Made by a program: the position numbers and the translations under genes
In this document: positions 1-21,922 of the stretch, piece by piece
How positions within the stretch are numbered: the first letter of the stretch is position 1
Layout: every line of letters starts with the position of its first letter
NCBI GenBank assembly: GCA_000310025.1
Contig: FN648904.1
Coordinates: forward strand, 1-22,395
DNA from: Ectocarpus siliculosus
Taxonomy: Eukaryota > Sar > Phaeophyceae > Ectocarpales > Ectocarpaceae
Direction of reading: 5' to 3'
DNA length: 22,395 nt
The notes under the pieces: generated by a model
What the model was told of the DNA's origin: nothing
The model's input: the letters and a program-made list of their open reading frames with translations, nothing else
The model's database searches: none

Positions 1-3000
1 GTCGCTACATTGCCCGCATGTCTTCCCGGGGTTGTTTGCAGTGTAGTTGTAGTTACGGAACGTAGAGGTCACGACCGTTGGATGGGCAGTGGCTTTTGTT
101 TGGAAGTGGGCGAGCTCAGGATCAGATTGATGTGTTATTTCCGTATTTGCACCCCCTGTAATTGCTCAACACGGACCACGTTTGTCTCCCGATGTCCGTG
201 TACGGGTTGGTCCTGTTTGCTTGTCGTGACGTGTGTGCTGGCATGTGCGGGCGTCGCCGATGTCGTATTGGTACTCTTGGTGGCAGGGATCACGCCGGCC
301 CCGACAGCTGATGGAACAGTGTCGCCGACTCCAGGTGATTTCCACCAGTCCGATGGTCGCTACATTGCCCGCATGTCTTCCCGGGGTTGTTTGCAGTGTA
401 GTTGTAGTTACGGAACGTAGAGGGCACGACCGTTAGATGGGCAGTGGCTTTTGTTTGGAAGTGGGCGAGCTCAGGATCAGATTGATGTGTGATTTCCGTA
501 TTTGCACCCCCTGTAATTGCTCAACACGGACCACGTTTGTCTCCCGATGTCCGTGTACGGGTTGGTCCTGTTTGCTTGTCGTGACGTGTGTCTTGACGCG
601 TGCGGACGTCGCCGATGTCGTACTGGTACTCTTGGTGGCAGGGATCACGCCGGCCCCGACAGCTGATGGAACAGTGTTGCCGACTCCAGGTGATCTCCAC
701 CAGCACGATGGTCGCTACATCGCCCGCTTGTCTACCCGGGGTTGTTTGCAGTGTAATTGTAGTTACGGAACGTAGAGGGCACGACCGTTGGATGGGCAGT
801 GGCTTTTGTTTGGAAGTGGGCGAGCTCAGGATCAGATTGATGTGTAATTTCCGTATTTGCACCCCCTGTAATTGCCCAACACGGACCACGTTTGTCTCCC
901 GATGTCCGTGTACGGGTTGGTCCTGTTTGCTTGTCGTGACGTGTGTGCTGGCATGTGCGGGCGTCGCCGATGCCGTATTGGTACTCTTGGTGGCAGGGAT
1001 CACGCCGGCCCCGACAGCTGATGGAACAGTGTTGCCGACTCCAGGTGATTTCCACCAGCCCGATGGTCGCTACATCGCCCGCATGTCTAACCGGGGTTGT
1101 TTGCAGTGTAGTTGTAGTTACGGAACGTAGAGGGCACGACCGTTGGATGGGCAGTGGCTTTTGTTTGGAAGTGGGCGAGCTCAGGATCAGATTGATGTGT
1201 GATTTCCGTGTTGGCACCCCCTGTAATTGCTCAACACGGACCACGTTTGTCTCCCGATGTCCGTGTACGGGTTGGTCCTGTTTGCTTGTCGTGACGTGTG
1301 TGTTGACGCGTGCGGATGTCGCCGATGTCGTATTGGTACTCTTGGTGGCAGGGATCACGCCGGCCCCGACAGCTGATGGAACAGTGTTGCCGACTCCAGG
1401 TGATTTCCACCAGCCCGATGGTCGCTACATTGCCCGCATGTCTTCCCGGGGTTGTTTGCAGTGTAGTTGTAGTTACGGAACGTAGAGGGCACGACCGTTA
1501 GATGGGCAGTGGCTTTTGTTTGGAAGTGGGCGAGCTCAGGATCAGATTGATGTGTGATTTCCGTATTTGCACCCCCTGTAATTGCTCAACACGGACCACG
1601 TTTGTCTCCCGATGTCCGTGTACGGGTTGGTCCTGTTTGCTTGTCGTGACGTGTGTCTTGACGCGTGCGGACGTCGCCGATGTCGTACTGGTACTCTTGG
1701 TGGCAGGGATCACGCCGGCCCCGACAGCTGATGGAACAGTGTTGCCGACTCCAGGTGATCTCCACCAGCACGATGGTCGCTACATCGCCCGCTTGTCTAC
1801 CCGGGGTTGTTTGCAGTGTAATTGTAGTTACGGAACGTAGAGGGCACGACCGTTGGATGGGCAGTGGCTTTTGTTTGGAAGTGGGCGAGCTCAGGATTAG
1901 ATTGATGTGTAATTCCAGTATTTTCACCCCCATAAATTGCCCAACACGGACCACGTTTGTCTCCCGATGTCCGTGTACGGGTTGGTCCTGTTTGCTTGTC
2001 GTGACGTGTGTCTTGACGCGTGCGGATGTCGTATTGGTACTCTTGATGGCAGGGATCACGCCGGCCCCGACGGCTGATGGAACAGTGTTGCCGACTCCAG
2101 GTGATCTCCAACAGCCCGATGGTCGCTACATCGCCCGCTTGTCTAACCGGGGTTGTTTGCAGTGTAGTTGTAGTTACGGAACGTAGAGGGCACGACCGTT
2201 GGATGGGCAGTGGCTTTTGTTTGGAAGTGGGCGAGCTCAGGATCAGATTGATGTGTAATTCCAGTATTTTCACCCCCTGTAATTGCCCAACACGGACCAC
2301 GTTTGTCTCCCGATGTCCGTGTACGGGTTGGTCCTGTTTGCTTGTCGTGACGTGTGTGTTGACGCGTGCGGACGTCGCCGATGTCGTATTGGTACTCTTG
2401 ATGGCAGGGATCACGCCGGCCTCGACGGCTGATGGAACAGTGTTGCCGACTCCACGTGATTTCCACCAGCCCGATGGTCGCTACATTGCCCGCATGTCTA
2501 CCCGGGGTTGTTTGCAGTGTAGTTGTAGTTACAGTATCTGGAGGGCGCGGACGTTGGATGGGAAGTGTCTTTTGTTTGGAATTGGGCGAGCTCAGGATCA
2601 GATTGATGTGTGATTTCCGTATTTGCATCCCCTGTAATTGCTCAACACGGACCACGTTTGTCTCCCGATGTCCGTGTACGGGATGGGGCTGTTTGATTGT
2701 CGTGACGTGTGTGTTGACGCGTGCGGATGTCGCCGATGTCGTATTGGTACTCTTGATGGCAGGGATCACGCCGGCCCCGACAGCTGATGGAACAGTGTTG
2801 CCGACTCCAGGTGATTGCCACCAGCACGATGGTCGCTACATTGCCCGCATGTCTAACCGGGGTTGTTTGCAGTGTAGTTGTAGTTACGGAACGTAGAGGG
2901 CACGACCGTTGGATGGGCAGTGGCTTCTGTTTGGAAGTAGGCGAGCTCAGGATCAGATTGATCATATTGGCACCCCGTGTAATTGCTTAACACGGACCAC

Positions 3001-3501
3001 GTCTGTCTCCCGATGTCCGTGTACGGGTTCGTGTACGGGTTGGTCCTGTTTGCTTGTCGTGACGTGCGTGCTGATGCATGCCCATGTCGCCGATGTCGTA
3101 TTGGTACTCTTGATGGCAGGGATCACGCCGGCCCCGACAGCTGATGGAACAGTGTTGCCGACTCCAGGTGATTTCCACCAGCACGATGGTCGCTACATTG
3201 CCCGCATGTCTAACCGGGGTTGTTTGCAGTGTAGTTGTAGATACGACATGTGGCAGGGACAACCAAGTGGTTTTTGTTTGGAAGTGGGCGTGGTCAAGAT
3301 CAGATTGATCTATTTCCACCCGCTGCATTTCTTCAACACGGACCACGTTTGTATCCGGACGTCGGTGAACGCGTTGGTCCTGTTTGATTATCGTGACGTG
3401 CGTGCTGACGGGTGCGGATGTCGTCGATGTCGTATTGGTACTCTTGATGGCAGGGATCACGCCGGCCCCGACAGCTGATGGAACAGTGTTGCCGTCGTCA
3501 G
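1..3501 (+). repeat. Tandem array of ~355-bp exon-bearing units
   Basis: Ten complete units follow a partial one at the left edge, so the array continues upstream. Distances between the same point in successive units are 355, 355, 355, 355, 346, 355, 355, 357 and 334 bp. The 346-bp unit lacks 9 bp near 2027; the 357-bp unit has a short duplication of GTGTACGGGTT near 3020. Units near the left are almost identical, while the last (about 3168-3453) is clearly diverged. Since 355 is 1 mod 3, any long open frame through the array rotates frame each unit, so no continuous protein repeat is encoded. Each unit instead contains a 48-bp segment bounded by AG and GT that fits an exon. Array structure is seen directly; the exon reading is inference. 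Confidence 0.95.
287..3501 (+). CDS. Ten 48-bp symmetric mini-exons encoding 16-aa Pro/Thr repeats
   Basis: Each mini-exon follows the acceptor context TGGTGGCAG or TGATGGCAG and ends at CCAG|GTGATT or CCAG|GTGATC. The last copy ends at TCAG|GTAAAT. All are phase 1 at both ends, so each adds GITPAPTADGTVLPTP or a close variant (V-S-P in copy 1, PAST in copy 7, LPSS in copy 10). The composition, rich in Pro and Thr, suits an extended O-glycosylated mucin-like stalk. In the diverged last unit the first 41 exon bases are unchanged although the flanks have drifted, which supports coding use. The joint from copy 10 to exon A (3813) is also phase 1. Copy 7 has C instead of G as its last exon base (2455), which may weaken its donor. 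Confidence 0.65.
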
Positions 3502-6500
3502 GTAAATGTCAGCACCATGATACACTTGTCGAATGTTCGCTTGGTTAAGACCCGTGTTTTGTTTTCCTGATTTCATGTGCGCTTGGACTGACTTCTGGAA
3601 GCAATACTAGGAGCTCATTTGAGACGCAGCGGTTTCCCACACAGGCGAAAGTTGACTTAGGCATATCACTCCGCTGGTGTGGCACGTGAGATTTCATAGA
3701 CTACCATGTAGCCATGGTGCGGTCAATTCTTGGGCCTTGGCCACTACTTTGTTCGACGTTTCACGTAAACTTCCCTCCACCTGAAGCCTGTCATATTTCC
3801 TCTGCTACGCAGAAGAAATCCCGTCGACACAAGCTCCTTCGCATGCAGCTGCTGTCCAAGCCCCTGGGTCTGTAAGCACGGCTGACCCTGACGGTGGAGC
3901 CGACTTCGATCGAGTTCCGACAGCAGCGCCCACCTCGGCACCAACGTTCCTGGTCGAGGTGAACGATTTGCAGCGATTTATTTGGGTACGGCCGTCATTT
4001 TTCGGTAGAACTGTTGACGTTGAGCACCTACTCGTGATCCGCAAATCAGTTCGCTTGTGAACCGTTGAACGTTCCACGGGGATGGTACCGCTTTTTTCGC
4101 TTTCGTGCTGCAGGTTCAGGGGGCCGCCATCGGTGCCGCCCGTGTTGTCTCGGCCGCCTCCGTTGGGGGTGTGGTGGCGTCAACCGTGGGCACCGTCGTC
4201 AGTGGTTCCGCCAGTGCAGCGTCATCAGCAATGGCGGGGGGCACGGTATGTCCCGGAGAATAGGAATAGTTGGTTGTCGTTGGATAGTAACAATACATTA
4301 TTATTGCATGTTCAATCTACTGTTCATATTCAGCACAGCAGTGTTTTACGTGCCGATCCTTGTTCGGCTTATAATTCCTTCGCGCTCGGTCACTTCATCA
4401 TCCTACACTATTTTCAAGTATTCTCCTCTCACGTCTTTGCCCCTTGTTTCGAAACAGGGCCAGGCAGCGACGCAGACTACGTTCCGCAATCCGTCGTCGA
4501 CGATGGCTTTAGTTCTTACGTCACAAATTCAGTTTTTAGCAACGCTGTCGTTCGTGGACAATACGGGAGCGGAGGATTCTGCTCTCTCTGGGTTTACCAA
4601 CGCCCTCAGGTCAGCAAGAATATCCATTAGGCCGATGAGACGGTTGCGACGAGTGGGTCACCTCAATCTCTAGAGGAGCGCGCGTCCAACGGTTACGTGC
4701 TTCGTGCATTAATCTGTAGTGCAGAAGGACTAAGCGCTGAAAACACCACTTGGCCAACCATTGAGCACTTGTGTGGACGCATGCAACAACGTATCTGAAT
4801 TGCACTCGCTGTGTTACTACGGATCTATACCGCTCGGCATCGTCAAGGTGGGTAAACTTGTGGCCAAGCGAACGCTTCTCGGAGGTTGTTGCATCACGGA
4901 TCTTTTCGAGCAACCCCGACCAAACCCATGGAGAAGATGATGGTGACGATGATACAACAAAGCGAGGAATGTCCGTGTCATTCACCAACGACCTCGGCTC
5001 TCTGTTGTTCATGGGAAATCTTGCGCTTTTTGCGGGTCTTCTGGCGATCATATTTTCCTTGCATATCTTGGTGGCGTCGGCAATTGAGGCGCACTGGCTG
5101 GCAAAGGTGAGAAAAGGCCCTAAATTGAGTTGTACGTTGGGGTCGCGAGCCGTTCCCGAGGGAAAAGCATACATCTGTTTAAGAAAAAGCATGGCAGGTG
5201 TGTTCGGCGTGCAGACTATGATTTTTGCGAAACCAAATGATGGTGGCATCATGGGTATTGGGCGTAGAGCTACATAGAGCTGCAACGGGCAACGCATCTT
5301 ACTTACGCACCTCCCTACGACCGACCTGTCGTCATGCCTCTCTTTCGTACTTTAATAGCAACGGGCGAGCAGGGAGGCTTCAAGAGCCTTGGGCCATGGC
5401 CTTTCTTTAAGCGAGCTGTCCACCACCCTCTTGGACACACGCTTCCAGCAGCCGAGTTTGGATGGGGGCTCCTCAGCAGGGAGCCAGTCGTCCGATGCCG
5501 TCCAGTCGCACTCATTGAGAGGACAATCTACGTCATTTCGGGGCAGCAGCGACTCGGGGGATTTGGAGAGTAATAAAGAAGAAGGCGGACGAACGAACGC
5601 GCGTCAGAGCAAATCGATGGGCCGAGTGTTGGAGTGTCGAGAACTGTCGCAGTCACCGTGGCTCCATTACCCGCACCTGGAACTCATCTTTCTTTTCTTC
5701 GCCTTCGAGGGGGCAGTCACCTCACAGGTCTCAGCCTTGCGAAGTACAAGTTCTTCGAAGCTTTATTACGCGGCCTTGGTGACGTTGGTGAGGGCATGCG
5801 AAGCGGTGACAGTACGTAATAGAACTTTGTGCGTTATGCGGGTGCTATGAACAGACTTCAGGGGAGAACGTCGGTCGCAAACAAGCAACGCGGTGAGATG
5901 CCCTAATAGGGGGGGTGGGAACAGGTCTCAGGTACAGGTTTCAAGAGCTGTCACGTAAACGCACCCGCACTCGCAGGATCTTTTAGTGCAGCGCTCGTTG
6001 TGATGGGGGCTAGGCACTGTTCGCTTAGCTCGCTCCGCACAAAAAGTTCGCCTAGCCTTATAAATGTACGTCCCGACAGATATCTCGCCGGGTAGATAGG
6101 GAGACGTCGTCAACACCAGTGGTTCACAACGAATCGAATACCGGAGTAGGTTCATGCAATCGATACCCTCATCGACTTTTACACGCGTCTTCGCTGCGCT
6201 CCCTCGCCTATCGAAACCACCCCATCACCGCCTGGGTCCTGGGTTCCTGACAGTGCGTCTTTCGTGTCTACTTCCGACTGTGGGGCCTGTCATTTGGATG
6301 AAATTTGTGCATTGTGTCGTGCTTGAGAGTTTCCATGGAGTCATGTCAGAGCGTGTCCTGATCAACTTCCATCGCTGTTCTATAATTTCTCGGTGAACGA
6401 ATGCGCGAACAGGTGCTCTACCCGGTGCTGATGTTTGCAATGGTCACGCGAACTCACAGGTAAGATACTTCCCTCTATCCCGAAACTGGTCACGTGCAGA

Positions 6501-9500
6501 CAGCGTAGAGGCCATCCTCAGCTTCCGACCACCTCGTATTGCTCTGAGAACTATCGAGGCTTTCTGTGGGTGTACTCTAGTTGCAGCGATTTCCGAGTGG
6601 TTATATCTGCCGCTCTCCAACCAGGTGTACCCAATTAGTGGAAAACCCGCGGAAGGCTAATGTGCTGTTTGGGTGACGCGTGTTCCGTAAGAAGGCGAAC
6701 ATGGACCGCTCATATAGATTTGTTGTGTGTCAACTTCCCGCGTTGTGTCTATCGGATCGTGGCCACCTCATCTCATATCTTCTGTCTGTATTGTACGTGG
6801 CAGGGTGAGGGTTCGATCGGATGCCCTCATTGTGTTCGTGTCCAATGAAAACCGCGTAACCTCTACGGGCAAGAAAGAGTTTTTCTCTAAACTCCTTGCT
6901 GGTTCGAGAAATGATTTGAGCTTATTTACTTGGGCGGACAAGGGACAGTGGGAGACAGTCCAAACGTCGGACGTGAATGCAAGGCGTGATGCTGATTGGT
7001 TCCGGATCGGGTTCGAGCCCTTGTTTGCCGACTTCACCCAAGCTGGATCGTGGTTCATTCTCTACACATTGATGGAGGTACGTCGCGGTTCAAGAGCAGC
7101 CTCTCCTCCACTCGATTCCTAACCCCGACTCACTCACCACTCGTCGATAGAGTGAGTACCTGGCAAGAGTTGAGGCTATCTCCGCTAGCGGTACGGGGTA
7201 CGTTTGATGAGGCGACCATGTCTTCGTTTCTACCAATCATGCTGTTTCACGCCGCTACCCTGACGTACAAGTAGCTTCTGTCTCACCGTCAAGCGCGTCG
7301 TCCAGTGCTTGACACTGTTTGACATTTGTACTAAGTTTCATTGCAACTGGCATCCAACTTCCATTCCCGTCGGTCGAAGCTGATCAATCTTGATAGGAAG
7401 AGGGCATGCTGTAGCCCGGTATTGAAATCAAAGTTGATGAACTTGGTCAGTCTAGATCAAACTTCGCCTACAACAAACTGGGCTGGTGTCTCCAGTTTGG
7501 ATGGAAGTTCCATGCCAACTTTCGTTCAGCCTTCATCCCAATCTTGGCAACAATTTTTCGTCAAAGTCGAGTGTGTTTCCGTCACACGGAAACATGCGGA
7601 GTTGTCGCAACAAAACAAACAAAATGCGTTGTATAGATATATCGCGTTGTGATTGTTCTTCTCTCTATTTTGTTCACAATAATGCATGATTCGCCGACGG
7701 AGCTAGCCTAGTCGTTGCCGACCAGTATACTTTACAGGGTCCCTCCGCATTCCGCTTTCCACGAAAATATCGACAACATTGAGAACCCGTATCACCCCAA
7801 CGGGTGTTGATCGGCGTGCAAGTTGGACCGAGTTCTTTCCCGAATGGCAGAAAGCGAACAATAAAATTGTGACTACATGTAGCGCTGATGCAAATTTGAT
7901 CAGGTACATGTGGGTTAATGTTATGCGAAATCCAACACAAATCCAACCGTTGAACACCACTCTAAATATGATCCTGCTTTTTCCAAGTGTCAACAAACGT
8001 GCGGTATCGAAAACAATGCAATGTTCTAAGGTGTCATAGCTGACACTGTATGCATGTGTTGGGAACGATGAGTGACAACGTTGATCAATGTTGGCCACAG
8101 TTCCGGTTAGATATTATCCTTTTCTCAGAATAGCTCTGATCACATTTGGATCAAAGGCTTCACGGCATTCGTCATTCCAATTGCCATCGCAGATCATAGT
8201 TGATCACACCTCGAAGTTCCAACGCATTCCATTTATTTCAACAACGTCCATCACATTGTATAAGAGTTCATGCTTTGTCGAATCAACATGCATCGAAGCA
8301 AAAAAAAGACACAGTGGACCGCGTTTCCGTCACACTCCCAACGCACTAGCGTCAACACTCGTCGAAGTTTCATTACGATTTGCATGGACATTGTAAAACG
8401 CGCACCGACATTAATCAACGTCCGGCTGCTATCATCAACCTTGATCCCAGTTGCCATGCGAACTCAATGAAAATGTCAAATAGTTGGTGTATAATACTCG
8501 CTTCACCCGAAGTGGAATTGATTCTGCCGACTCGAGGCGTCAGCCCTTTAGCAGGCGTTTCACGCTCCTCATGGCCGTATATCTGCCCCCTGTGCGCGCT
8601 GCCCGAAGGCCTGCACAAAAAAGCCTCCACCACATCTTGTGTAAGGTAGAGTACCATGGGTAATTGTTTGTCATTGGCGCGTCGGCATTTCTGTTTCTAT
8701 TGGGCCCGTGAACAGTTTGCCACTGCTTGCTTCTGAGACGCGCACGCAGGAGCTTCATCGTTACACTTACCTTGACCCCGAACGTCGCGGGTACCGGTTC
8801 TTTTTCTACCGCTGATGAGATACAACCCGGGTGGCAAGTCGCCAAACCTGGAAGGATAGCCTTGCTAGAAGTACCAAATGTTACGATCACTTTCACCGGA
8901 GCGCTCACGTGCAAGCGGGGGAACTTTGAGGTTTCTTTGATGAAGGTGTTTACTCTGACCTTTTACGACGCGCACCAGGACGCCCCTCCTCAATGTATAG
9001 CTCTTCGCGGCGTCAGCGAGAAATATGCTCTTCCAGCCTGACCATCGTGTCGCGGGATCGGGCGTCGAAGATTCAGTTACAGTAGGCCGATTCGGCTCCG
9101 ATCAGCCTGAACGTGTTTTTCATGCTTAATTGGTTCATGCTAACTGTTGGGTTTTCGTGTTCTCTCCCATGTCGTCTTGCAAAGTGGGCGTTCTATGCGA
9201 TCGTTGGCGTGCTGGTGGACAACAGTGTGGTTCAACTCGGCTTATTCTGCGCCATGCATTCGTTGACCTTCATCCTCCTCGTGGTTTTCAAGCCCTTCGC
9301 AAACAGGTGGGTGGATGTCGCCCAGAACCACGAATGAAATTACTTCCTTCTTTGTATCGTAGTATCGTCTTCAGCATGTAGCTTGAGGCCTTTCTAGCGG
9401 AAAGGGTATGGCAAATATGATTTTTCCTGGATCGTGTGAGCAAGAATCGACTGATCAACATTGGTGTTGATATACGCAACACAGCGTCGTGCACACGCGC

Positions 9501-11547
9501 TTGGTCAGCGCTACGTCCACCGAAGGCATAGAGCATTGAATTTCGACGCATCGGGAACCGGACAATTTGAAGGTTTCCACCCATGGGGAGAAATTCGAAA
9601 CAATGACCCTTCTAATGTCTAGGATGTCGACTGCTCGCAATGAAACGTTTGTGTTTTTATTTTTGCGGAAGGTTTGGGACTGTTCTGCCAAAGTTGACGG
9701 TCGGGCGGGTTAGGCAGTTCATACAAACATGATACTATCACAACCCGCTCTTTTTTCTGTACAGTAATCGGAGACAACACAACTCACGACGCCATCGACC
9801 ACCTTTCAGAGTCGCGATCGTCGTGGCAAACAATAACGTCACACAAACGTTTTCTAATCTCTTGTTACCTAGGTTTATGGGGCATGGTCGGCCCTTAGTT
9901 TTGAACATCCGAAGCTGTTCCACGTGTTGCGCTAAGCTTGGTCGAAACGTTTGTTGCCCACGAGAAGACTCCATGAAACCAGAGCGATATCACGCTCTTG
10001 CTCGGTGGATGGCAGTTACTACCCAGAGACATGTGTAGCTGTGTTAAGTTTGACCGGTTATGTCTTCCGGTCGACGAACGCGGGGGGCGCCATGAGGATT
10101 TGCCCTGCACCAGCTTCCCCCCGGGAAACCCGCGGGAGCTGCAGGGTTTAATGATTCCCCCTTTGTCGTTACGTCCAACCTGGCGGCCGGTGCGAGAGAC
10201 TTTGCGGAACACTCCCCACCCAGAGCCACGAAGGGAACACATTTGAAGTCGTCTTGATGGGTACAGACTTGTACGAGACACGAAACGCCGCTTGTGAAAC
10301 TATATTGTGTCGTCTGTGGATAACGATTTGAAGGAGAAACCAGACTCTCCTTGTCGCTCTTCACTTTCGATGTCTGGGCGTCTCGTGCACGCAGCGTTCT
10401 GAACGCGATGGGGGCAATGGTCATGCTGACGGACGCGGTTTGTATGGGGATGCTGGCCATTTCCGCTAGCATGTTCGACGGGACTCCGACAGCAAACGGG
10501 ATTGACACGGCAGTCATGGTCACACAACAACTTTGTGTTGCAGGTGAGGCTCGGTTGAATGTAATGACACAATTTCCAGCAATATATCTAACGTATTGCC
10601 AACTGGTTCTGTCAGCCAGTCTGTGCTCGTACCTTGGGGCGCTGCATTTTTTCTGGAAGCGCTTAGCGTGCTCTTCCATGTGGTGTTCTCCACCGTACAC
10701 GTCGCTGGCAAGAAAGTCGAACATTATTGGTTTTACATCGGCAGCGGCAGGAACGCTACCGTGTCGCCCGTGAATTTCGAGTTTGGCTCGTTGCCTGCCC
10801 TGATCCGCGCTGCAACGTCCCTTGCTTGTACAGCACTGGTGGTACCCCTCTACTTGGATACTTGCGTGTCACTATGGGGGGCGTTTCGAGACAGGAGAGG
10901 ACGCGTCAAGACCAGAGAGAATGAAGATGACGTGAGTTCAAACACAACAGCACACAGCCATCGTAGTATCGGTGAAAATGTTTCAGCACACGTCAAGGAG
11001 GGAGACGTGCCGGATATGCGTTTACAAATTTCGTACGGCAGAGGGTTTACAAAGCTAATACGTCCGTGCTTGGGCAACTCAGTCGTGCATTTCGTCTTGT
11101 ACGGCAGCCCCAGAGAAGGCGGTTCAATTTCACGTTTTAGCACCAAGAACGTATCGACCACAGATGTTTGAAAGTTTACCACAGTCTTGAAAGGGGAGAA
11201 CACGAAGGTGTAACGATTCATCTCCTAGACGTCGCGCGTAGAAGGTTAGCACTGGCGTCGTCTTAGCTTCGGCGAAGGACATCCAACTATTTACCATGCC
11301 CGCTGCCTTCTACGTGCAGGAGCCAATCGATTCATGTACCGAAGCCAATCGCACGCCTTTTCCTCGCTAAACAATCTCTTTGCAGCGCGCCGAGCGGGAG
11401 TTCATCACCCGTCGCACTCTCCGGCTGTGGGCACCCACCTGGTTCAGGATGGTCGGCAACAACCTGTTCGCATGTAGGTTGCTGTTGCGAAATGCTTTCG
11501 GAAGCGGAAAAGTGCGACCGCGTGTGAGGGCTTGGCCACGGGTCTGA
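287..11547 (+). CDS. Multi-exon surface membrane protein with mucin-like stalk, 5' partial
   Basis: I read this as one spliced gene. Exons: ten mini-exons at 287-334, 642-689, 997-1044, 1352-1399, 1707-1754, 2053-2100, 2408-2455, 2763-2810, 3120-3167, 3454-3501; then A 3813-3958, B 4114-4245, C 4458-4609, D 4848-5106, E 5359-5787, F 6413-6459, G 6804-7077, H 9185-9306, I 10395-10543, J 10660-10931, K 11386-11547. All introns are GT-AG and all phases agree; the total is 873 codons plus stop, beginning inside a codon. The order is a Pro/Thr stalk, a Gly/Ala-rich segment, about eight or nine hydrophobic helices, a Ser-rich loop and a basic tail. It should sit in the plasma membrane with the stalk outside. 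Blocks such as LRWVNLWP, DWFRIGFEPLF and RLWAPTWF resemble, from memory, stramenopile surface proteins often labelled PMP- or TRP/polycystin-like. Channel function is unproven. The N-terminal ectodomain and start lie upstream. The tail may instead continue into the 11745-15349 frame. Confidence 0.72.
3502..3812 (+). other. Intron after the last mini-exon
   Basis: The donor is GTAAAT and the acceptor CTACGCAG has a pyrimidine-rich lead (CATATTTCCTCTGCTACGCAG lies just before exon A). At 311 bp it matches the ~307-bp introns inside the array. Its first ~50 bases still show weak similarity to the repeat unit, so it is probably a decayed repeat half-unit. I see no gene in it. Confidence 0.6.
3813..3958 (+). 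CDS. Exon A: Pro/Thr/Ala-rich end of stalk
   Basis: It enters in phase 1 (the G of copy 10 plus AA gives Glu) and leaves in phase 0 at GTCGAG|GTGAAC. The 48-residue segment includes EIPSTQAPSHAAAVQAPG and TAAPTSAPTFLVE, which are Pro, Thr, Ser and Ala rich. It continues the mucin-like stalk up to the membrane domain. The opposite strand shows open frames over the same bases, but these do not connect to anything. Confidence 0.7.
4114..4245 (+). CDS. Exon B: Gly/Ala/Ser/Val segment
   Basis: The acceptor is TCGTGCTGCAG and the donor ACG|GTATGT; both ends are phase 0 and the exon has 44 codons. The product (VQGAAIGAARVVSAASVGG and onward) is almost entirely small residues, like a glycine-zipper or flexible membrane-proximal helix. 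This type of segment precedes the first helix in the stramenopile proteins this gene resembles (recollection, not a search). Confidence 0.7.
4458..4609 (+). CDS. Exon C: first clear helix, SQIQFLATLSFV
   Basis: The acceptor is TTTCGAAACAG and the donor CTCAG|GTCAGC, which is a weak donor. It enters phase 0 and leaves phase 2. The segment MALVLTSQIQFLATLSFV is hydrophobic and is followed by DNTGAEDSALSGFTNALR. Joined to exon D it gives FTNALRWVNLWP, a block that reads through smoothly and supports the splice. Confidence 0.75.
4848..5106 (+). CDS. Exon D: acidic loop and long membrane helix
   Basis: It enters phase 2 and leaves phase 0 at GCAAAG|GTGAGA. It starts WVNLWPSERFSEVVASR, has an acidic stretch (HGEDDGDDD), then a strong hydrophobic run SLLFMGNLALFAGLLAIIF followed by EAHWLAK. 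One or two membrane segments are likely. Confidence 0.8.
5359..5787 (+). CDS. Exon E: Ser-rich loop and helix PHLELIFLFFAFEGAV
   Basis: It enters and leaves in phase 0; the donor is ACGTTG|GTGAGG. About 85 residues of Ser/Gln/Gly-rich, charged sequence come first, probably a cytosolic loop with phosphorylatable sites (SQSSDAVQSHSLRGQ). Then comes SPWLHYPHLELIFLFFAFEG and the start of the next helix (LYYAALVTL), completed by exon F. Confidence 0.78.
6413..6459 (+). CDS. Exon F: 47-bp micro-exon completing a helix
   Basis: The acceptor is GCGCGAACAG and the donor CACAG|GTAAGA is near-ideal. It enters phase 0 and leaves phase 2. Joined to exon E it gives YYAALVTLVLYPVLMFAM, one continuous membrane helix, followed by VTRTHR. 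The helix is split by the 625-bp intron 5788-6412, in which I see no gene. Confidence 0.75.
6804..7077 (+). CDS. Exon G: conserved WFRIGFEPLFADFT block
   Basis: It enters phase 2 (AG plus G gives Arg) and leaves phase 0 at ATGGAG|GTACGT. The first 70 residues are soluble (TWADKGQWETVQT, DVNARRDAD). They are followed by WFRIGFEPLFADFTQAGSWF and the start of a helix, ILYTLME, which continues as WAFYAIVGVLV in exon H. This is the segment most like the family I recall. Confidence 0.8.
7078..9184 (+). other. 2.1-kb intron
   Basis: The donor is GTACGT and the acceptor CGTCTTGCAAAG; phase 0 is kept between exons G and H. It is the longest intron in the window. Its middle (about 7300-8500) is richer in A+T than the exons and contains short recurring words (TTGATCA, GTTTCCGTCACA at 7579 and 8326). 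An open frame at 8727-9041 is noted under findings. No convincing gene or complete mobile element is visible. Confidence 0.6.
9185..9306 (+). CDS. Exon H: two membrane helices
   Basis: It enters phase 0 and leaves phase 2 at AACAG|GTGGGT. WAFYAIVGVLVDNSVVQLGL and LTFILLVVFKPFAN are both strongly hydrophobic. The first helix is completed by the end of exon G. Confidence 0.8.
9307..10394 (+). other. 1.1-kb intron
   Basis: Donor GTGGGT, acceptor GTGCACGCAG. Phase 2 is kept (AG plus C gives Ser, reading FANSVLNAMG). Several open frames cross it on both strands, but none has a recognisable domain or connects to an exon. I see nothing else in it. Confidence 0.6.
10395..10543 (+). CDS. Exon I: helix VLNAMGAMVMLTDAVCMG
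   Basis: It enters phase 2 and leaves phase 1 at the ideal donor TTGCAG|GTGAGG. A Met/Ala-rich hydrophobic helix is followed by a polar stretch (DGTPTANGIDTAVMVTQQL). Confidence 0.75.
10660..10931 (+). CDS. Exon J: last two membrane helices
   Basis: The acceptor is GCATTTTTTCTGGAAG, with a strong pyrimidine tract, and the donor GATGAC|GTGAGT. It enters phase 1 and leaves phase 0. The helices are AALSVLFHVVFSTVHV and IRAATSLACTALVVPLYLD, followed by a charged segment (FRDRRGRVKTRENEDD). Frame forces this acceptor: the AGs at 10614-10615 and 10618-10619 do not match the phase of exon I. Confidence 0.7.
11386..11547 (+). CDS. Exon K: basic C-terminal tail
   Basis: The acceptor region has a CTAAAC branch-like word and a pyrimidine tract (ACAATCTCTTTGCAG). 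It enters in phase 0 and reads RAEREFITRRTLRLWAPTWF then RMVGNNLFACRLLLRNAF, ending at TGA 11545-11547. A weaker alternative last exon, 11320-11370 (EPIDSCTEANRTPFPR then stop), uses a poorer acceptor. A donor at CAT|GTAGGT (11474) could instead join this exon to 11745. Confidence 0.6.
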   Translation, partial: RAEREFITRRTLRLWAPTWFRMVGNNLFACRLLLRNAFGSGKVRPRVRAWPRV

Positions 11548-11635
11548 GGGACGGGGCTGTTGTGAATTGCACCCACGAAGGCCTTCAAGTACAGAATAAG
11601 CAAACCAACAACATCGATGGCCACATTATTGACCA

Positions 11636-14600
11636 ATGTTGAGACGCGTGGGTGTGAGACGTCAATCCAGCTGTTCCAAGCATGTCGACGAAGAAATGAG
11701 TACCACAGTGATGCCCAACGGAACTCCACCCTCTTCTAACGCAGGTGTGAGGGATACTAGAGAAGGTATCCGTGACCCGACAGGTTCCAGGCTCCAAGCG
11801 AGTCTGCGAGCTGGGCGCATCGGCCCGTATCCTGAATGGGTTATGAAACTACGAGCACCGGTTCCTATCGACCTGCCACGTCGCCGTTCCGGTGCTTCAT
11901 ATCGGTACGAGGAGCAGGTGGATGCCAAAACTGAGCAATATTTCTCTGGAAAACGCTCGAGCGGGAAAGGATGGCCTATGGAGTACGATCTACCTCTCCG
12001 TCGTCCGCGATACTCTTTTGATTCGTGTACCTCTTCCGCAAGCATGGACACATCCGGTCAAATGGCAACGCCCGTGAATATGGACGGGCACCGAAGTTAT
12101 GGAAGGCAGAACCAAGCAGGTGTTACCGAGGACGATCTGCCCCGCCGCCGTTTCTTCTCCCCCTCGATATCGGGGAGTGTGGACAATGCCATGGACGAAC
12201 AGGCGATCCAGGACCATGGTGTTGACACGGAAACTACGTCAGAAGTGCAAGGTCGAAGTCACGGTCGGGGTCGTACACCGGAAGGACCGACAGAGGAAGA
12301 TTTGCCGCGTCGTCGCCCGAGATTTTCGTTTGCTTCAACGGTTTCGGTTGACCGGGCCGACAACCTCCACGTCGTCCGGTCAGTTAGACCGAAGCACGAG
12401 GATAGTCGGACACGAGTAAGGGGAGGGCCCATCGAGGACGATTTGCCCCGGCGTCGTTCCTGTCTCTCTTCTACCTTGGGAAGTTCGAAAGGGCGTATCG
12501 ACGATCCTGGCCTGCAGTCAGTGCCGGAACACGAACATGGTCTGCAATATCCTGTCGATGAGATCGATGCTCGAAGACGTGATGGGTTAGGGGAACGTCG
12601 ACGGGCAGGACCCATCGAAGACGATCTGCCACACCGCCGCTCCGGTTTCTCCTCGACTTCTGGTTCCGCGTCATATGGCCCCGACCCCCCTGGTGTGAAG
12701 GCTAAGCACGATTACAGCAAAAACACTGAAGGCGAACGCGGTGACACAAGTAATCTAACTCAGAGATGGGGAGAACCCGTCGAAGATGGCCTTCCCCGGC
12801 GTCGGTCGGGTTTCTCTTCCGCTTCAATGGCTTCGGTGGATGGCAGCAGTAAACGCGAAAAGGAGTCCGTGTCGACGTGTGAGGATGGCCTGAAATCTGT
12901 GGTGAATGAAGACGGTAGAAGCGGTTGGGGTCGTGTGCGAAGAGGACCCGCCGAGGACGACCTGCCCCACCGCCGCCCAGTTGTCTCTTCCATGTCGGAT
13001 TCTTCGACGGATTCCAGAGGGCATGGACTGCGAAAATGGGGAGAACCCGTTGAGCATGACTTGCCCCAGCGTCGGTCGTGGTTTTCTTCTGCTTCGACGA
13101 CATCGATACCAAGCATTAGCGACACCGGACTACCGTCAGCACCGGACCGCGGAGACGGTGTTATTTTTTATGCCGACAAGGACGACCTTCAGCATGGTCG
13201 AGGAAGAAAACGGTTCGGACCGGTTGAAGACGGCCTGCCCCAGCGTCGCTCTATTTTCTTTTTTCCGTCGACGGCGCCGGTGAGCATTAGCAATGACAGC
13301 GGCCCGCAGCCTGCACCGGAGCTTGGGAGTAGTGCAACGTCTGCTGTGTGCGAGAACGGTCTGAAGAATGGTCGAGGACGAAAATGGGGAGGGCCCGCCG
13401 AGGACGACTTGCCCCGGCGTCGACCGCGGTTCTCTTCTACTTCGACGTCATCGCTGAGCAGCATCAGCGACAACGGACCACCTTCAGCGTCGGACTATGG
13501 AGACGGTGGGATATCTGGTGTCGAGGAGAACGGACTTAAGCATGGTCGAGGAAAACGATGGTGTGCACCCGTTGAAGACGACCTGCCCCAGCGTCGCCCA
13601 ATCTTCTCTTCTGGGTCGACGGTTTCGATGAGCGACAGGAATGGCATAGGCCCGCAGCCGGCGCTGGAGCATGGGGATGGTACAACGTCTACTGTCGCTA
13701 AGGACGGCCTTCAGCATGGTCGCGGTCGAAAGTCGGGACGGCCCGTTGAACACGACTTGCCCCAGCGTCGATCGTGGTTCTCTTCTACTTCCACGGCATC
13801 GACAAGCAGCATCAATGATACTGGCTTGCAGTCACCGCAGTCACCGAAGGGCCATCGGGATGGGGTGGCTCTCAGCGTCGATGAGGACGACGGTCTGAAG
13901 CATGGCCGAGAGCGAAAGTGGTGGCAACCTGCTGAAGACGACCTCCCCCGGCGTCGGTCGAGTTTGACGCCTACGGTAGGGTATGCGGTAGGTTTTCCCG
14001 ACGAATCTGGGCTGCAGATAGGGCCGGAGCATGACAGCGGCCTTTCGTCTGTGGTCGATGAGAGCGGTCGGCGGCATGGTCAAGGACAAAAATGGAGAGG
14101 GCCTTTCGAAGATGACCTGCCTCGGTGTCGCTGCATCAGCTCGTCCAAAACGGAGTATTTGACAGATGCCATTTCTGCGTCTGACCGACAAGGAGAATGT
14201 GGTCACGGTGATGGCTTGGGGTCGGTCTTTGGTGACAACGGCTCCCCAAGTGTTGTGGGAGGTCGACACCAAGGAACGGTTCAAGACAAGTTTCTGCACC
14301 GCCGGCAAAACTTCGGCTCTGCTACATGTTTTCTGGCCGACACATTCGATGAATCAGTCCTGCCAGTAGCGCACGAGCACGACGTTGCCCCACGCGCCTC
14401 TTCGGATCAAGGTGGTCAAGGGCATGCTCGTACTGGTGTCGATCTTCCCAAGCCTGGGCGTCATGTTTGGTGGTCGGACATGATAGAGGGGGGATCGCTC
14501 GAGCTTTGGAGCGAATCATTACCTGCAGAGGCGGGTCTCCCTTGGGAGCCCGGAGAGAGTCCGTCTTCCAGGACAAGAGACCAGTCAAGAATGTATGAGG

Positions 14601-15349
14601 TGCGGCCATTAGAGGATCGAAGGAAGCCCTGTGTTCTGGCTCAGGGTAAGGTTCTTGATTCGTCGTCGGCGCCAGATTCCGACACACTAGTATGCGCGAT
14701 TGGGACAGGTTCGCAGGCCTCAAGAGTCCTTGCGGAAGACGTGGTGAGAAACGGCAGCAACCTCGTGGGTGGCAGCCGGAGTTGGAGCTTAAGCCGCCCA
14801 ACGCCAGTCGAAATCTACCTGCCCCACCGCAAGCGGAACAAGTTTTCCGCTTTTGAACAGTCGATGGATGATGGTGAAGTCACTAGTAGAAGATCGATGC
14901 CACAAGCCGGGGATGACGCCAGCCACAAGAGGAATGATAATTTGAACGGGGAGAAGGACGGGAGGTTAGAAGGCAGCACTCGTCGGCGCACATTTGGTCC
15001 TTTGTCTGGGCACACGCGGAGGCCTGCTGAGACTACAGTGCCACGGCGTCGTCCTAGCTTGTTCGCCGTTGGACACGAGGCTGGGGGAGGTTGCGAGACT
15101 CCCGGTTTTGGTGGAGTCGACACGGGCGGAGAGAAACATACCGGCAAAGCCGTGGAAGCAGACGAAGACGGGAAGAAGTACAATGACCCCGCTAGCACGA
15201 GCGAGGGTGCAGGCCTTTTCCGAATCGCGTGGGGACATCAAAGAGGAAAACCCACGGCCGTTGATCTCCCACGGCGCTCTTCCGGCTACTCGTTCGATTC
15301 ATCACATGCCCTGAATACCGCTGCAGAGGCGCCTTCCCTCCAGGACTGA
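11636..15349 (+). CDS. Repetitive disordered protein with ~19 DLPRRRS-type repeats
   Basis: This uninterrupted frame of 1237 codons starts at ATG 11636 (a second in-frame ATG lies at 11698). It is by far the longest open frame, so it is very likely coding. It is rich in Arg, Ser, Asp, Gly and Pro, has no hydrophobic segment and no signal peptide, and is probably intrinsically disordered. The repeat, about 58 residues in the middle copies, is a core such as GPAEDDLPRRRPRFSS, a Ser/Thr-rich stretch, a variable acidic part (GDG, DEDDG) and a basic end such as HGRGRKWG. The core contains R-R-x-S/T contexts that basophilic kinases favour, and the basic ends could act as nuclear signals; both are inference. 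I recognise no catalytic domain. The frame begins 88 bp after the stop of the membrane gene, so it may be a downstream exon of that gene, entered at 11745. Confidence 0.85.
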   Translation: MLRRVGVRRQSSCSKHVDEEMSTTVMPNGTPPSSNAGVRDTREGIRDPTGSRLQASLRAGRIGPYPEWVMKLRAPVPIDLPRRRSGASYRYEEQVDAKTEQYFSGKRSSGKGWPMEYDLPLRRPRYSFDSCTSSASMDTSGQMATPVNMDGHRSYGRQNQAGVTEDDLPRRRFFSPSISGSVDNAMDEQAIQDHGVDTETTSEVQGRSHGRGRTPEGPTEEDLPRRRPRFSFASTVSVDRADNLHVVRSVRPKHEDSRTRVRGGPIEDDLPRRRSCLSSTLGSSKGRIDDPGLQSVPEHEHGLQYPVDEIDARRRDGLGERRRAGPIEDDLPHRRSGFSSTSGSASYGPDPPGVKAKHDYSKNTEGERGDTSNLTQRWGEPVEDGLPRRRSGFSSASMASVDGSSKREKESVSTCEDGLKSVVNEDGRSGWGRVRRGPAEDDLPHRRPVVSSMSDSSTDSRGHGLRKWGEPVEHDLPQRRSWFSSASTTSIPSISDTGLPSAPDRGDGVIFYADKDDLQHGRGRKRFGPVEDGLPQRRSIFFFPSTAPVSISNDSGPQPAPELGSSATSAVCENGLKNGRGRKWGGPAEDDLPRRRPRFSSTSTSSLSSISDNGPPSASDYGDGGISGVEENGLKHGRGKRWCAPVEDDLPQRRPIFSSGSTVSMSDRNGIGPQPALEHGDGTTSTVAKDGLQHGRGRKSGRPVEHDLPQRRSWFSSTSTASTSSINDTGLQSPQSPKGHRDGVALSVDEDDGLKHGRERKWWQPAEDDLPRRRSSLTPTVGYAVGFPDESGLQIGPEHDSGLSSVVDESGRRHGQGQKWRGPFEDDLPRCRCISSSKTEYLTDAISASDRQGECGHGDGLGSVFGDNGSPSVVGGRHQGTVQDKFLHRRQNFGSATCFLADTFDESVLPVAHEHDVAPRASSDQGGQGHARTGVDLPKPGRHVWWSDMIEGGSLELWSESLPAEAGLPWEPGESPSSRTRDQSRMYEVRPLEDRRKPCVLAQGKVLDSSSAPDSDTLVCAIGTGSQASRVLAEDVVRNGSNLVGGSRSWSLSRPTPVEIYLPHRKRNKFSAFEQSMDDGEVTSRRSMPQAGDDASHKRNDNLNGEKDGRLEGSTRRRTFGPLSGHTRRPAETTVPRRRPSLFAVGHEAGGGCETPGFGGVDTGGEKHTGKAVEADEDGKKYNDPASTSEGAGLFRIAWGHQRGKPTAVDLPRRSSGYSFDSSHALNTAAEAPSLQD
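11855..15296 (+). repeat. Coding tandem repeat, ~174 bp per unit
   Basis: About 19 copies of the (D/E)xDLPxRR core occur from 11855 to 15296. Four central units in a row (copies 9 to 12) are each 58 residues long. Copies at both ends are irregular, and two decayed cores lie between copies 16 and 17 (VDLPKPGRHVWWS and AGLPWEPGESPSS). Homogeneous centre and diverged edges are typical of an array kept similar by unequal exchange. Confidence 0.9.
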
Positions 15350-18691: not shown

Positions 18692-19881
18692 GGGGGTTAG
18701 GGTTAGGGTTAGGGTTAGGGTTAGGGTTAGGGCCCCCATTTTGTCACGTGTCACAGAAAACAGGGTTGAAGATTGAAAACAGGGTTGAGGATTGAATCCC
18801 TGTTTTCACGGTGTATGTCTTGGCTTAGGGCCCCTATTTTGTCACGTGTCACAGAAAACAGGGTTGAAGATTGAAAACAGGGTTGAGGATTGAATCCCTA
18901 TTTTCACGGTGTATGTCTTGGCTTAGGGCCCCCATTTTGTCACGTGTCACAGAAAACAGGGTTGGAGATTGAAAACAGGCTTGAGGATTGAATCCCTGTT
19001 TTCACGGTGTATGTCTTGGGTTAGGGTTAGGGTTAGGGTTAGGGTTAGGGTTAGGGCCCCCATTTTGTCACGTGTCACAGAAAACAGGGTTGGAGGTTGA
19101 AAACAGGGTTGGAGATTGAATCGCTGTTGTCACTGTGCATGCCTTGGGTTAGGGCCCCCATTTTGTCACGTGTCACAGAAAAAGGGTTGGAGATTGAAAA
19201 CAGGGTTGGAGATTGACTCCCTGTTTTCACTGTGTATGTCTTGGGATAGGGCCCCCATTTTGTCACGTGTCACAGAAAACAGGGTTGGAGATTCAAAACA
19301 GGGTTGGAGATTGAATCGCTGTTGTCACTGTGGGTTAGGGCCCCTGTTTTGTCACGTGTCACAGAAAACAGGGTTGGAGATTGAATACAGGGTTGGGGAT
19401 TGAATCCCCGTTAGGGTTATGGCTAGGTTAGGGTTAGGGTTAGGGATAGGGCCCCCATTTTGTCACGTGCCACAGAAAACAGGGTTGGAGATGAAAAACA
19501 GGATCTCAGATTGAATCACTGTTTCCACGGTGTATGTCTTGGCTTAGGGCCCCTATTTTGTCACGTGTCACAGAAACTAGGGTTGGAGATTGAAAACAGG
19601 ATCTCAGATTGAACCACTGTTTCCACGGTGTATGTCTTGGCTTAGGGCCCCCATTTTGTCACTTAGGGCCCCCATTTTGTCACGTGTCACAGAAAACAGG
19701 GTTGGAGATTCGAAACAGGGTTGTGGATTGAATCCCTGTTTTCACGGTGTATGTCTTGGGTTAGGGCCCCATTTTGGGTTAGGGTTAGGGTTAGGGCCCC
19801 CTTTTTGTCACGTTTCACAGAAAACAGGGTTGGAGATTCAAAACAGGATCTCAGATTGAAACTCTGTTCTCACTGCTCGGT
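18692..19881 (+). repeat. Interstitial telomeric satellite block 1
   Basis: TTAGGG runs (18692-18732, 19018-19056, 19411-19452, 19777-19796) alternate with a unit of about 98 bp. The unit starts GGGCCCCCATTTTGTCACG, carries two tandem copies of a 19-bp word (CAGGGTTGGAGATTGAAAA) and ends near GTGTATGTCTTGGGTTA. CACGTG positions show unit spacings of 98, 98, 128, 98, 97, 89, 111 and 98 bp; the 128-bp step equals 98 plus five hexamers. The block decays near 19881, and a last TTAGGGTTAG occurs at 19924. The short open frames inside it are not genes. Confidence 0.95.
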
Positions 19882-20037
19882 CGTGCTCGGTGAGCGAGCG
19901 TGTCGCGTTAGGCGCCCTCGACGTTAGGGTTAGCAGAAAAACTGGAAAGCTTCAGACAGGTAACGCGACGATACTCGAGTTGCTATCACAATAAGACATC
20001 CATCTGAGCAATAGGGGTGCAGAAAAAATAAAAATGT
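19882..20037. other. Spacer between satellite and gene island
   Basis: It contains a short telomeric remnant (TTAGGGTTAG at 19924-19933) and an A-rich stretch near 20020-20034. It could hold the promoter of the gene that follows; I see no other feature. Confidence 0.4.
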
Positions 20038-20205
20038 ATGGTATATCCTGGGTGTAGCTTCTGGACACCGCATCGTCGACGAAAGATTCGTTCAAGGTAC
20101 ATACATACATTGGAAGGATCGTATTTAGAGGTTTGGTTAGCCCAGCTCGAGACTTCATTCATTTTAGACTACCATGATGCCGGCCGGTGGTGGTGGACAA
20201 GGTAG
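20038..20205 (+). pseudogene. Possible broken or separate 5' part of the subtelomeric gene
   Basis: An open frame of 55 codons from ATG 20038 ends at TAG 20203-20205. It lies in the same frame as the first supported exon of the next gene. It reads MVYPGCSFWTPHRRRKIR at the start and DYHDAGRWWWTR at the end. The stop may be a nonsense change in one longer exon, or the TAG may be the acceptor of an intron (GGTAG|GCGG). A rival start, ATG 20174 in another frame (MMPAGGGGQGRRKKKR), would need a one-base frame change near 20248. Confidence 0.3.
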
Positions 20206-21612
20206 GCGGAAGAAGAAGCGTACAAGAGGCCGCTCGAGGGGCCGAGGTGGGAATCCGGAGATCAATTCGACGGCCCTGCTTTCCACCGATTCCGCGATGC
20301 TTTCCAAAAATGCACTCTCATGGCCAACATTACAGCTACCAAGTATGGCAGATCCTCTTGGGCCCCTGCGGCGTTTGTTCTGAGGAAGGTCGTCTGCCTC
20401 GAAGCTCTTTCTCTCTTCTGCGCCATGTTTTCGTACTCCGTCGCCGCTTGCACGTTATGTTATCCTACCGTTCCTTTTCGTCATGCTTTACCAGTCTGTG
20501 CATGTGTGTCAACACTTTGGTTGCGGTTTTCGTATTTTGTAGGTAAACAACACGCCCGCCAACCGCGTGAACAACACCTTTCGGGCAACCCATGGGGCGG
20601 ACCCTACTCCACAAGATCCGCCTGGCCTCGTTGGGGCTCTCGTCGCGTGCTTTAGGAAAGCCGCTAGGAGTAGAAACGCCTCGAAGTTTGTCCCTGATCG
20701 GAAGGGAGGAAGTACGCCGGGTCTTGAGCTTCTCTCGCCCGCGCCGATCGCGAGCAGCAATGCTCCGAACATGATCACTGGAAGTGCCCAGAGTCTAGGA
20801 CTCCTTCCTCCTGCGCCGATTGCATCCAGCAGTTCTCCGAACATTCCCTTTGTGTTCCAAGATGAAGCACCATTGTCGTTGGGGGAGCCAGTAGTGGAGG
20901 GTCCGGACATCGAGGGATTATCCTGGGCTCCGCTTCATCGCCACAACGTCAACGGCGTCGCCACGTTTCCGGTTCAATTGCTGGCTTACCATGTGTTCGC
21001 CAAGGACAAGAGCGTATTGAAGAGAGTGAGGGAATCCGCGGGAAGCGTACTCGCAGGTTTCGCCCCCACGCACCTTAACGATCTACAAAAGACAACAAAG
21101 CCTGCTTCTCGTGCAAAGGAAATATACAGGCTATGGTGAGATTTGTTTTGAGTGATGGCTTGATTATAATACAAAGGCCATGGGGCAAACGTTGCGTTCA
21201 GGATTGCCTGGTGCTGATCAAGAATTTAGTGGAAGCTTTTCCGCCTAAATATATGTGCTCGGCGTGGAACTCAGGTCCGCTGTACTGGACAAGACCATCG
21301 AGGAACTCTACGACGATGAAGGAGCTAGTCTACCTGAGGACTATCTCGGTCGTGCTCGAGAGAGGTATGACGCCGCCGCCTTGCGGGCAGAGGACATCGA
21401 TTTTGATGTATTCGAAAGGTGCGTTTATAATGAAATCTTAGCTGTGGTTATGGTGCTGTTCATAAAAAAAATTGTGTAGTGATGGTACCGCAGACAATTT
21501 TCTAGCGGCATACAACACTTCCCGCGGCGACGTCCTCGTTGAGAGGGGTGCAACCGCGTTGGATAATTTGGACACTGTGTCCCACGGTCTGGTTGGCAGG
21601 AACACTGTTTGA
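20206..21612 (+). CDS. Four-exon gene of unknown function, subtelomeric, 5' end unresolved
   Basis: Exons: 20206-20388, 20543-21135, 21275-21418, 21480-21612. Introns are GT-AG with acceptors TATTTTGTAG, GGAACTCAG and ATTGTGTAG. Phases 0, 2 and 2 match, giving 350 residues and a TGA at 21610. Exon 1 reads FDGPAFHRFRDAFQKC and GRSSWAPAAFVLRK. Exon 2 is long and includes a duplicated stretch (LLSPAPIASSNAPN, LLPPAPIASSSSPN) and the segment VATFPVQLLAYHVFAKD. Exon 3 is acidic (KTIEELYDDEGASLPEDYL, RAEDIDFDVFE). Exon 4 ends DNLDTVSHGLVGRNTV. There is no signal peptide, membrane segment or domain that I recognise. The gene lies between two blocks of telomeric satellite. The upstream in-frame stop means the start is uncertain, and it could be a pseudogene. 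Confidence 0.6.
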
Positions 21613-21922
21613 CTATCCTCGTTTCCTCATGATCACAAGCGCCTCGGTGGTGGTGGATAGAAACATACACATTTTACCCGCCATTGGTTACGGTAAGGGT
21701 TAGGGTGTTGGCCTTTCTAACCCTAGATACACGTATGACCCGCCATTGGAGTTGGGAATGCATCCATGACTGGGTTAGGTATGCCCATAAACGTATTGGG
21801 TGGCGATGCGACGCCCGTGAACTTGACGAACGTGTTTTTTTCATTTCGCTGTCCACCGAAACGCTCACGCTGAAAGACATCAATATCTCGCGTGTTTCTT
21901 GTTTGTAGCAACGAGAGAGCAC
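21613..21922. other. Spacer with telomeric fragments
   Basis: It contains the small telomeric inverted repeat flanked by 12-bp direct repeats described separately. The rest has short open frames with no support. Confidence 0.4.
21676..21749. repeat. Telomeric inverted repeat between 12-bp direct repeats
   Basis: ACCCGCCATTGG occurs exactly at 21676-21687 and 21738-21749. The 50 bp between them hold AGGGTTAG (21696-21703) and its reverse complement CTAACCCT (21717-21724). This is the form expected of a small insertion with duplicated target, or of break repair that captured telomeric sequence. Confidence 0.6.

Follow-up and report, generated by a model that had tools for sequence, protein, structure and literature searches.

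What does a tandem array of ~355-bp units at the very start of a contig of the brown alga Ectocarpus siliculosus encode, and how could a protein repeat be read from it? The stretch of DNA that we analyzed (the window) comprises positions 1-22395, all 22,395 nucleotides of it on the forward strand, of contig FN648904.1 (assembly GCA_000310025.1), here called C339; relatives were sought in an assembly of 189 Mb in 492 contigs. We predict with good confidence that positions 1-3501 of C339, on the plus strand, are the ectodomain part of a gene for a multi-pass membrane protein, in which every stalk repeat is one spliced, symmetric mini-exon that has been amplified together with its intron. In the proposed mechanism, each 16-residue proline/threonine (P/T)-rich stalk repeat would be its own 48-bp phase-1/phase-1 exon, the ~355-bp exon plus intron would be the unit of amplification, and pre-mRNA splicing would join the mini-exons serially into a P/T-rich stalk that precedes a membrane domain. 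Splicing in this way, with the mini-exons joined in series, is very likely. Because intact cassettes are symmetric, the reading frame would be preserved when units are gained, lost or skipped.

Anatomy of the window array

The structure of the cassette array was confirmed with high confidence. Tandem Repeats Finder (TRF) reported a period of 355, 9.9 copies and 92% matches over positions 1-3494. The tandem unit is an exon together with its intron: ten 48-bp segments, at 287-334, 642-689, 997-1044, 1352-1399, 1707-1754, 2053-2100, 2408-2455, 2763-2810, 3120-3167 and 3454-3501 on the plus strand, are each preceded by AG (10/10) and followed by GT (10/10), and none contains an in-frame stop (0/10). 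The seventh ends in CCAC instead of CCAG, with C for G just before the donor GT, and the tenth, at the edge of the array, has a diverged 3' end (LPSS). Joined from phase 1, the segments translate as (ITPAPTADGTVLPTPG)n with minor differences between copies, and they continue without a change of frame into the next exon at 3813-3958, which is rich in proline, threonine and alanine (EEIPSTQAPSH...PTSAPTFLVE). An earlier sequence-only reading of this DNA had described ten such units, with phase 1 at both ends of each segment and an in-frame junction with the exon at 3813, and both descriptions were borne out. Since base 1 of the window is base 1 of C339 and falls inside the array, the array is truncated at its 5' end and ten copies is a minimum.

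The same reading held that the unit length is not a multiple of three and that a read-through protein repeat is thereby excluded. The nine exon-to-exon intervals are 355 (six times), 346, 357 and 334, such that eight of nine agree with the first statement and one (357) does not. The exclusion of read-through stands, but the stops provide it more directly than the unit length does, as the longest plus-strand frame within 1-3500 is 193 amino acids, shorter than two units. The minus strand of the array also has frames, of up to 230 amino acids, but the P/T exon candidates and the conserved downstream exons are on the plus strand.

Cassette arrays at paralogous loci

Units within an array derive from one another by copying, and ten intact pairs of splice sites are therefore not ten independent facts. 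This point favors an alternative in which the array is a non-coding minisatellite, intronic or intergenic, with a fortuitous exon-like segment, all splice sites in the homogenized array having been copied from one ancestor. For this reason we sought relatives. Using one unit as the query, we detected two more arrays (on C321 and C309), in which similarity was confined to the exon and its near flanks. A search with a downstream membrane exon identified ten paralogous places, on C339, C321, C309, C487 (two), C90, C463, C157, C479 and C10. Six of the ten are preceded, on their own strand, by cassette arrays: C339, C321, C309 (two arrays, C309a and C309b), the first of the C487 places (together with C388), C463 (arrays of two kinds) and C90. 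The linking exon at 3813-3958 has homologues after the C321 and C309 arrays, with equal entry and exit phases and the endings PTSAPTLMLE and PTMAPTFLAE, compared to PTSAPTFLVE in C339. From the shared strand and order and, on C339, C321 and C309, this homologous linking exon, we infer that the array belongs to the same gene as the membrane exons.

The design recurs at five paralogs with exon lengths of 36, 48, 51, 54, 63, 102 and 144 bp among the arrays. The exons of the window, like those of the other array types, have equal phases at both ends (1/1), except in decayed units of C309b and C487. AG and GT flank seven of seven exons on C321 and seven of seven in C309a, where each exon is 36 bp, as well as all five cysteine (Cys)-rich 144-bp exons and all six P/T-rich 102-bp exons on C463. 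C388 contains 43 exons without stops (AG 42/43, GT 43/43). The largest array, on C90, has 97 exons over 42.7 kb, from 40156 to 82955. All 97 have an in-frame AG, 90 at the expected place and seven upstream by 3 or 12 nt (giving one 54-bp and six 63-bp exons); the donors are GT in 95 and GC in two, stops are absent, and a reverse-complement control yielded 0. TRF reported nothing on C90:70000-89999, and the array was therefore traced by exon scans. C309a lies upstream of the decayed C309b on the same contig.

Counts of P/T-rich phase-1 exon candidates provide a strand control. At the six array loci, 8, 6, 7, 26, 13 and 71 candidates are on the gene strand versus 0, 0, 0, 0, 1 and 1 on the opposite strand. 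At the other four places the gene/opposite counts are 8/0 (second C487 place), 2/1 (C157), 0/4 (C10) and 0/1 (C479), and no cassette array was found within the ~8.5-10 kb examined at each. TRF detected in-exon repeats at the second C487 place, and in-exon repeats of 144, 135, 24, 183 and 12 bp occur at several paralogs, C463 and C487 included. Two routes of stalk-length evolution may therefore coexist in one family. Cys-rich modules, themselves repeated, stand before or among the P/T exons in C463 (48 residues) and C90 (14 places); on C90:34001-60000 they are interleaved with P/T exons in blocks that recur every ~4.6 kb.

Constraint on exons and introns

Within C339, variable columns in nine exon-plus-intron units number 4 of 48 in the exon and 82 of 319 in the intron (Fisher p 0.004). 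Between most arrays, exons are also better conserved: the C339 array shares 83% exon and 46% intron identity with C321, 79% and 47% with C309b, and 67% and 43% with C309a, and pairwise comparison of C339, C321 and C309b gives 79-92% for exons and 46-71% for introns. In 65 C90 units aligned in register, the majority base has a frequency of 0.88-0.95 at exon positions and 0.36-0.54 at intron positions distant from the splice sites. The ratio of nonsynonymous to synonymous substitution rates (dN/dS) over the 97 C90 exons is 0.43 in the predicted frame (bootstrap 0.36-0.49), while the two alternative frames give 1.46 and 1.52; purifying selection acts on the predicted frame in this array.

These results make the minisatellite explanation very improbable. 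Conservation of exon and splice-site columns outlasts the divergence of the introns, the dN/dS value is low in the predicted frame only, array types at six paralogs share phase-1 symmetry, and P/T exon candidates at array loci fall nearly all on the gene strand. The paralogous arrays and selection at the codon level give strong support to the proposal that every symmetric phase-1 exon encodes a single stalk repeat and was amplified jointly with its intron. C309a provides a further example. In its alignment the original acceptor is lost to a gap, and another AG, 12 nt deeper in the exon, yields the 36-bp exon, four codons shorter and unchanged in phase, which we read as selection for a cassette that can be spliced in frame.

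Evolution of stalk length

Divergence among the C339 units is uneven. Units 0 and 3 differ at two aligned columns and units 0 and 1 at 19, and divergence is greatest for the last two units, at the 3' edge, with 39-72 differences from the others. The block at 361-840 (plus strand) recurs at +1065, a distance of three units, with one mismatch in 480 bases, a trace of multi-unit exchange. C90 has a pair of 4.9-kb blocks that match at 94%, and C487 contains an irregular mixture of two unit types. A homogenized middle, a diverged edge and multi-unit blocks are the expected residue of unequal exchange or conversion. The near-identical multi-unit blocks and diverged edges thus support the proposal, made from the sequence alone, that copy number changes through unequal exchange. 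With units this similar, exchange or conversion would add and remove them and the length of the stalk would evolve fast. Differences in length between individuals are plausible, as is exon skipping.

Transcripts might additionally include different subsets of mini-exons, such that one gene would produce many stalk lengths. We regard this cassette alternative splicing as a tentative supplement to amplification in the genome. Any subset of intact symmetric cassettes remains in frame. In the literature cited here and below by PubMed Central (PMC) accession, which is represented by excerpts, alternative splicing is described for the leucine-rich repeat (LRR) exons of brown-algal ROCO genes (PMC11378527), and transcripts of the schistosome mucins SmPoMuc contain 1 to 100 repeats while the genes contain at most 20 (PMC2576457). 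However, unequal exchange alone would likewise leave symmetric exons and, since the window exons are nearly identical, choosing among them alters the length of the product and hardly its sequence.

Five contigs (C339, C321, C309, C388 and C487) begin or end within an array, as might be expected if misassembly had inflated copy number. That explanation is extremely improbable, given that the C463 and C90 arrays are internal to contigs of 161 and 160 kb and that the C90 units differ from each other in both exons and introns. The breaks suggest instead that the true arrays probably exceed their assembled length. A unit type common to C388 and C487 suggests that a single array may be split between them.

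The downstream exons and the encoded protein

The exons that follow the linking exon, all on the plus strand, suggest what the stalk is attached to. A glycine/alanine-rich, membrane-like exon (4114-4245) is followed by conserved exons at 4458-4610 (GQAATQTTFRNPSSTMALVLTSQ...), 4846-5107 (membrane exon WVNLWP...HILVASAIEAHWLAK, start approximate) and 5359-5811 (QRASREAS...WLHYPHLELIFLFFAFEGAV). The ends of the latter are approximate, as are those of the conserved exons after it: a short one at 6404-6460 (REQVLYPVLMFAMVTRT); one at 6802-7077 (RVRVRSDALIVF...DWFRIGFEPLFADFTQAGSWFILYTLME), part of which was the query that found the ten paralogous places; membrane exons at 9137-9307 (...HSLTFILLVVFKPFANR) and 10390-10545 (RSVLNAMGAMVMLTDAV...); and exons at 10767-10937 (PVNFEF...YLDTCVSLWGAFRDRRGRVKTREN) and 11386-11475 (RAEREFITRRTLRLWAPTWFRMVGNNLFAC), the last with a match on C157 (E 2e-7). 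A long open frame of 1238 amino acids (11633-15349), with a weak match in C463, is probably the intracellular tail of the array gene. It contains many DLPRRRS-type repeats, part of which are ~348-bp repeats at 13031-13814 (TRF); their RRxS resembles a kinase motif.

Hydropathy analysis of the conserved exons 3' of the array identified eight hydrophobic windows, of which two overlap. The P/T-rich composition of the array fits a mucin-like stalk, and the hydrophobic segments come after it. Searches with the joined membrane region found no Pfam family at E<=1 and nothing significant in the PDB (best E 0.79). A match of the Cys-rich repeat to CAP-ZIP_m, which had the lowest E value (0.0042), was not accepted, as it scored 17.9 bits against a cut-off of 28.2. 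The family looks like one of multi-pass membrane proteins with modular ectodomains composed of Cys-rich modules and P/T spacers. Their predicted location would be the cell surface, where the stalk may be glycosylated and the protein may function in adhesion, sensing or recognition.

Decay among the arrays

Several observations weigh against the interpretation of the array as the stalk-encoding part of a membrane protein gene. The upstream end of the gene falls beyond the start of C339, the stalk and membrane topology is a prediction from composition and hydropathy alone, and none of ten family pieces had a Pfam match above the curated cut-off. Within-array constraint on exons is unclear in two of seven arrays (C309a, p 0.34; the 102-bp exons of C463, p 0.43, exon/intron ratio 1.03), and C309a compared to C321 and C309b has 67% identity in exons and 67-70% in introns, the exon being no better conserved. 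In C309b, both splice sites in frame are kept in one of seven units, as a 63-bp exon; the acceptor is CAA or CGG in three units, and one unit has a stop. Among the 21 C487 units, one exon is 49 bp and another lacks the usual donor through a short deletion. Finally, splice sites (GC donors counted), length and frame are all intact in 194 of the 203 units examined across the arrays, a share that is biased upward because units were recruited via exon similarity and badly decayed ones are under-counted.

In the C487 stretch examined, the two odd units lie at 1878-1926, where an extra C in a run of C produces the 49-bp exon, and 2648-2695, where the donor is deleted; the array is otherwise uniform. 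They represent either real decay or assembly error.

One interpretation of such decay is that the window array is itself a relic, with most of its exons skipped and the gene either a pseudogene or functional without a stalk. The loss of splice site or frame in six of seven units of the sister array C309b, the divergence of the C339 units at the 3' edge, and the absence of such an array from the stretches examined at four of ten paralogs all point in this direction. All ten window exons, on the other hand, keep both splice sites and the frame, and the downstream exon is open over 6883-7077, with 80% identity to C309 and 75% to C321. We consider a relic improbable, and a working series of stalk exons remains our preferred interpretation.

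Genomic context

TTAGGG tracts interspersed with satellite units of ~98 bp occupy 18694-19868 and 21921-22354, within a region (18694-22354, no strand assigned) that is perhaps subtelomeric, on mixed evidence. The satellite has 207 matches genome-wide. Among the matches listed, it occurs in the first few kb of C100, C134, C14, C234, C279 and C21, always in minus (outward) orientation, and C321 begins with an imperfect (CCCTAA)n tract at 3-112, some 21.6 kb from its array. The satellite at other contig starts and the C321 tract hint at a possible subtelomeric position for C339 and C321. Two observations argue against this: the satellite is also internal to long contigs (on C26, for instance, near 0.7 and 6.4 Mb), and the initial 10 kb of C309 and of C321 yielded no copy of it. 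Exchange at subtelomeres has been described in schistosomes (PMC10900676). We speculate, while considering it rather unlikely in its entirety, that these genes encode giant cell-surface receptors or adhesins of a multicellular alga, partly subtelomeric, in which P/T-spacer and Cys-module cassettes would be exchanged unequally and spliced in mixed combinations, giving ectodomains specific to the individual. Such a system would be convergent with the polymorphic mucins of schistosomes and could possibly serve self/non-self or pathogen recognition.

Comparison with known systems

Amplification of an exon together with its intron is already known as a kind of change, from schistosome SmPoMuc, brown-algal ROCO and Tetrahymena LRR genes. 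The sequence-only reading had compared the array with the ROCO genes of Ectocarpus. The comparison is apt in that brown-algal LRR-ROCO genes also have one repeat per symmetric exon and exons in tandem arrays; there, 72-bp phase-2 exons encode one LRR each, the motifs number 4-49, and alternative splicing and diversifying selection are reported (PMC11378527). In contrast, the window exons are 48-bp phase-1 P/T spacers, and dN/dS is below 1 in C90. No ROC-COR Pfam match was found in the searched window pieces or the joined membrane region, and a COR-A profile search of the genome gave a single match, on C17.

In the sources as excerpted, the closest precedent is instead SmPoMuc of Schistosoma mansoni, in which exon 2 and its flanking introns are tandemly repeated, as a 27-bp exon in a ~1-kb unit with up to 20 genomic units (PMC2576457). 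The C339 family resembles SmPoMuc in its exon-intron tandem unit, mucin-like repeats, homogenized introns that block assembly, and membership of a multigene family. SmPoMuc differs in having 9-residue repeats, signal-peptide proteins and at most 20 genomic units, whereas the algal family has 12-34-residue repeats, up to 97 exons per locus, multi-pass membrane exons and Cys-rich modules, and the window has 48 bp in ~355 bp; we claim no sequence relation between the two. Tetrahymena LRR genes have similarly uniform tandem symmetric exons, of 90 bp and 1-51 per gene in T. thermophila, ascribed to unequal crossing over and retrotransposition, but these are phase-2 LRR exons compared to phase 1 here (PMC6564038). 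Schistosome micro-exon genes share the short exons (3-81 bp, mostly multiples of three, between long introns), but their products are secreted, unlike those predicted from the multi-pass membrane exons here (PMC10526429). Tandemly repeated exons with 81-base repeats in S. mansoni, in a 1988 paper known to us as a citation in PMC10526429, may be a further precedent.

In the open-licence PMC literature on exon-cassette or tandem-exon genes, we found no account of this P/T-spacer family, judging by titles and the openings of abstracts. As far as that literature shows, what is new is a family of P/T spacers and Cys modules with multi-pass membrane exons, its scale, and the presence of cassette arrays beside in-exon repeats. 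The C90 locus, with 97 exons of the same type, exceeds the 20 genomic units, 49 LRR motifs and 51 exons given for the three precedents in the excerpted sources. The exons are short and five contigs break in arrays, and similar surface proteins may therefore be overlooked elsewhere. Since this ten-member family seems to encode stalks via both cassette arrays and plain in-exon repeats, the two routes to a change in length can be compared directly. The window array looks like a further case of the lengthening of an extracellular stalk by joint amplification of exon and intron.

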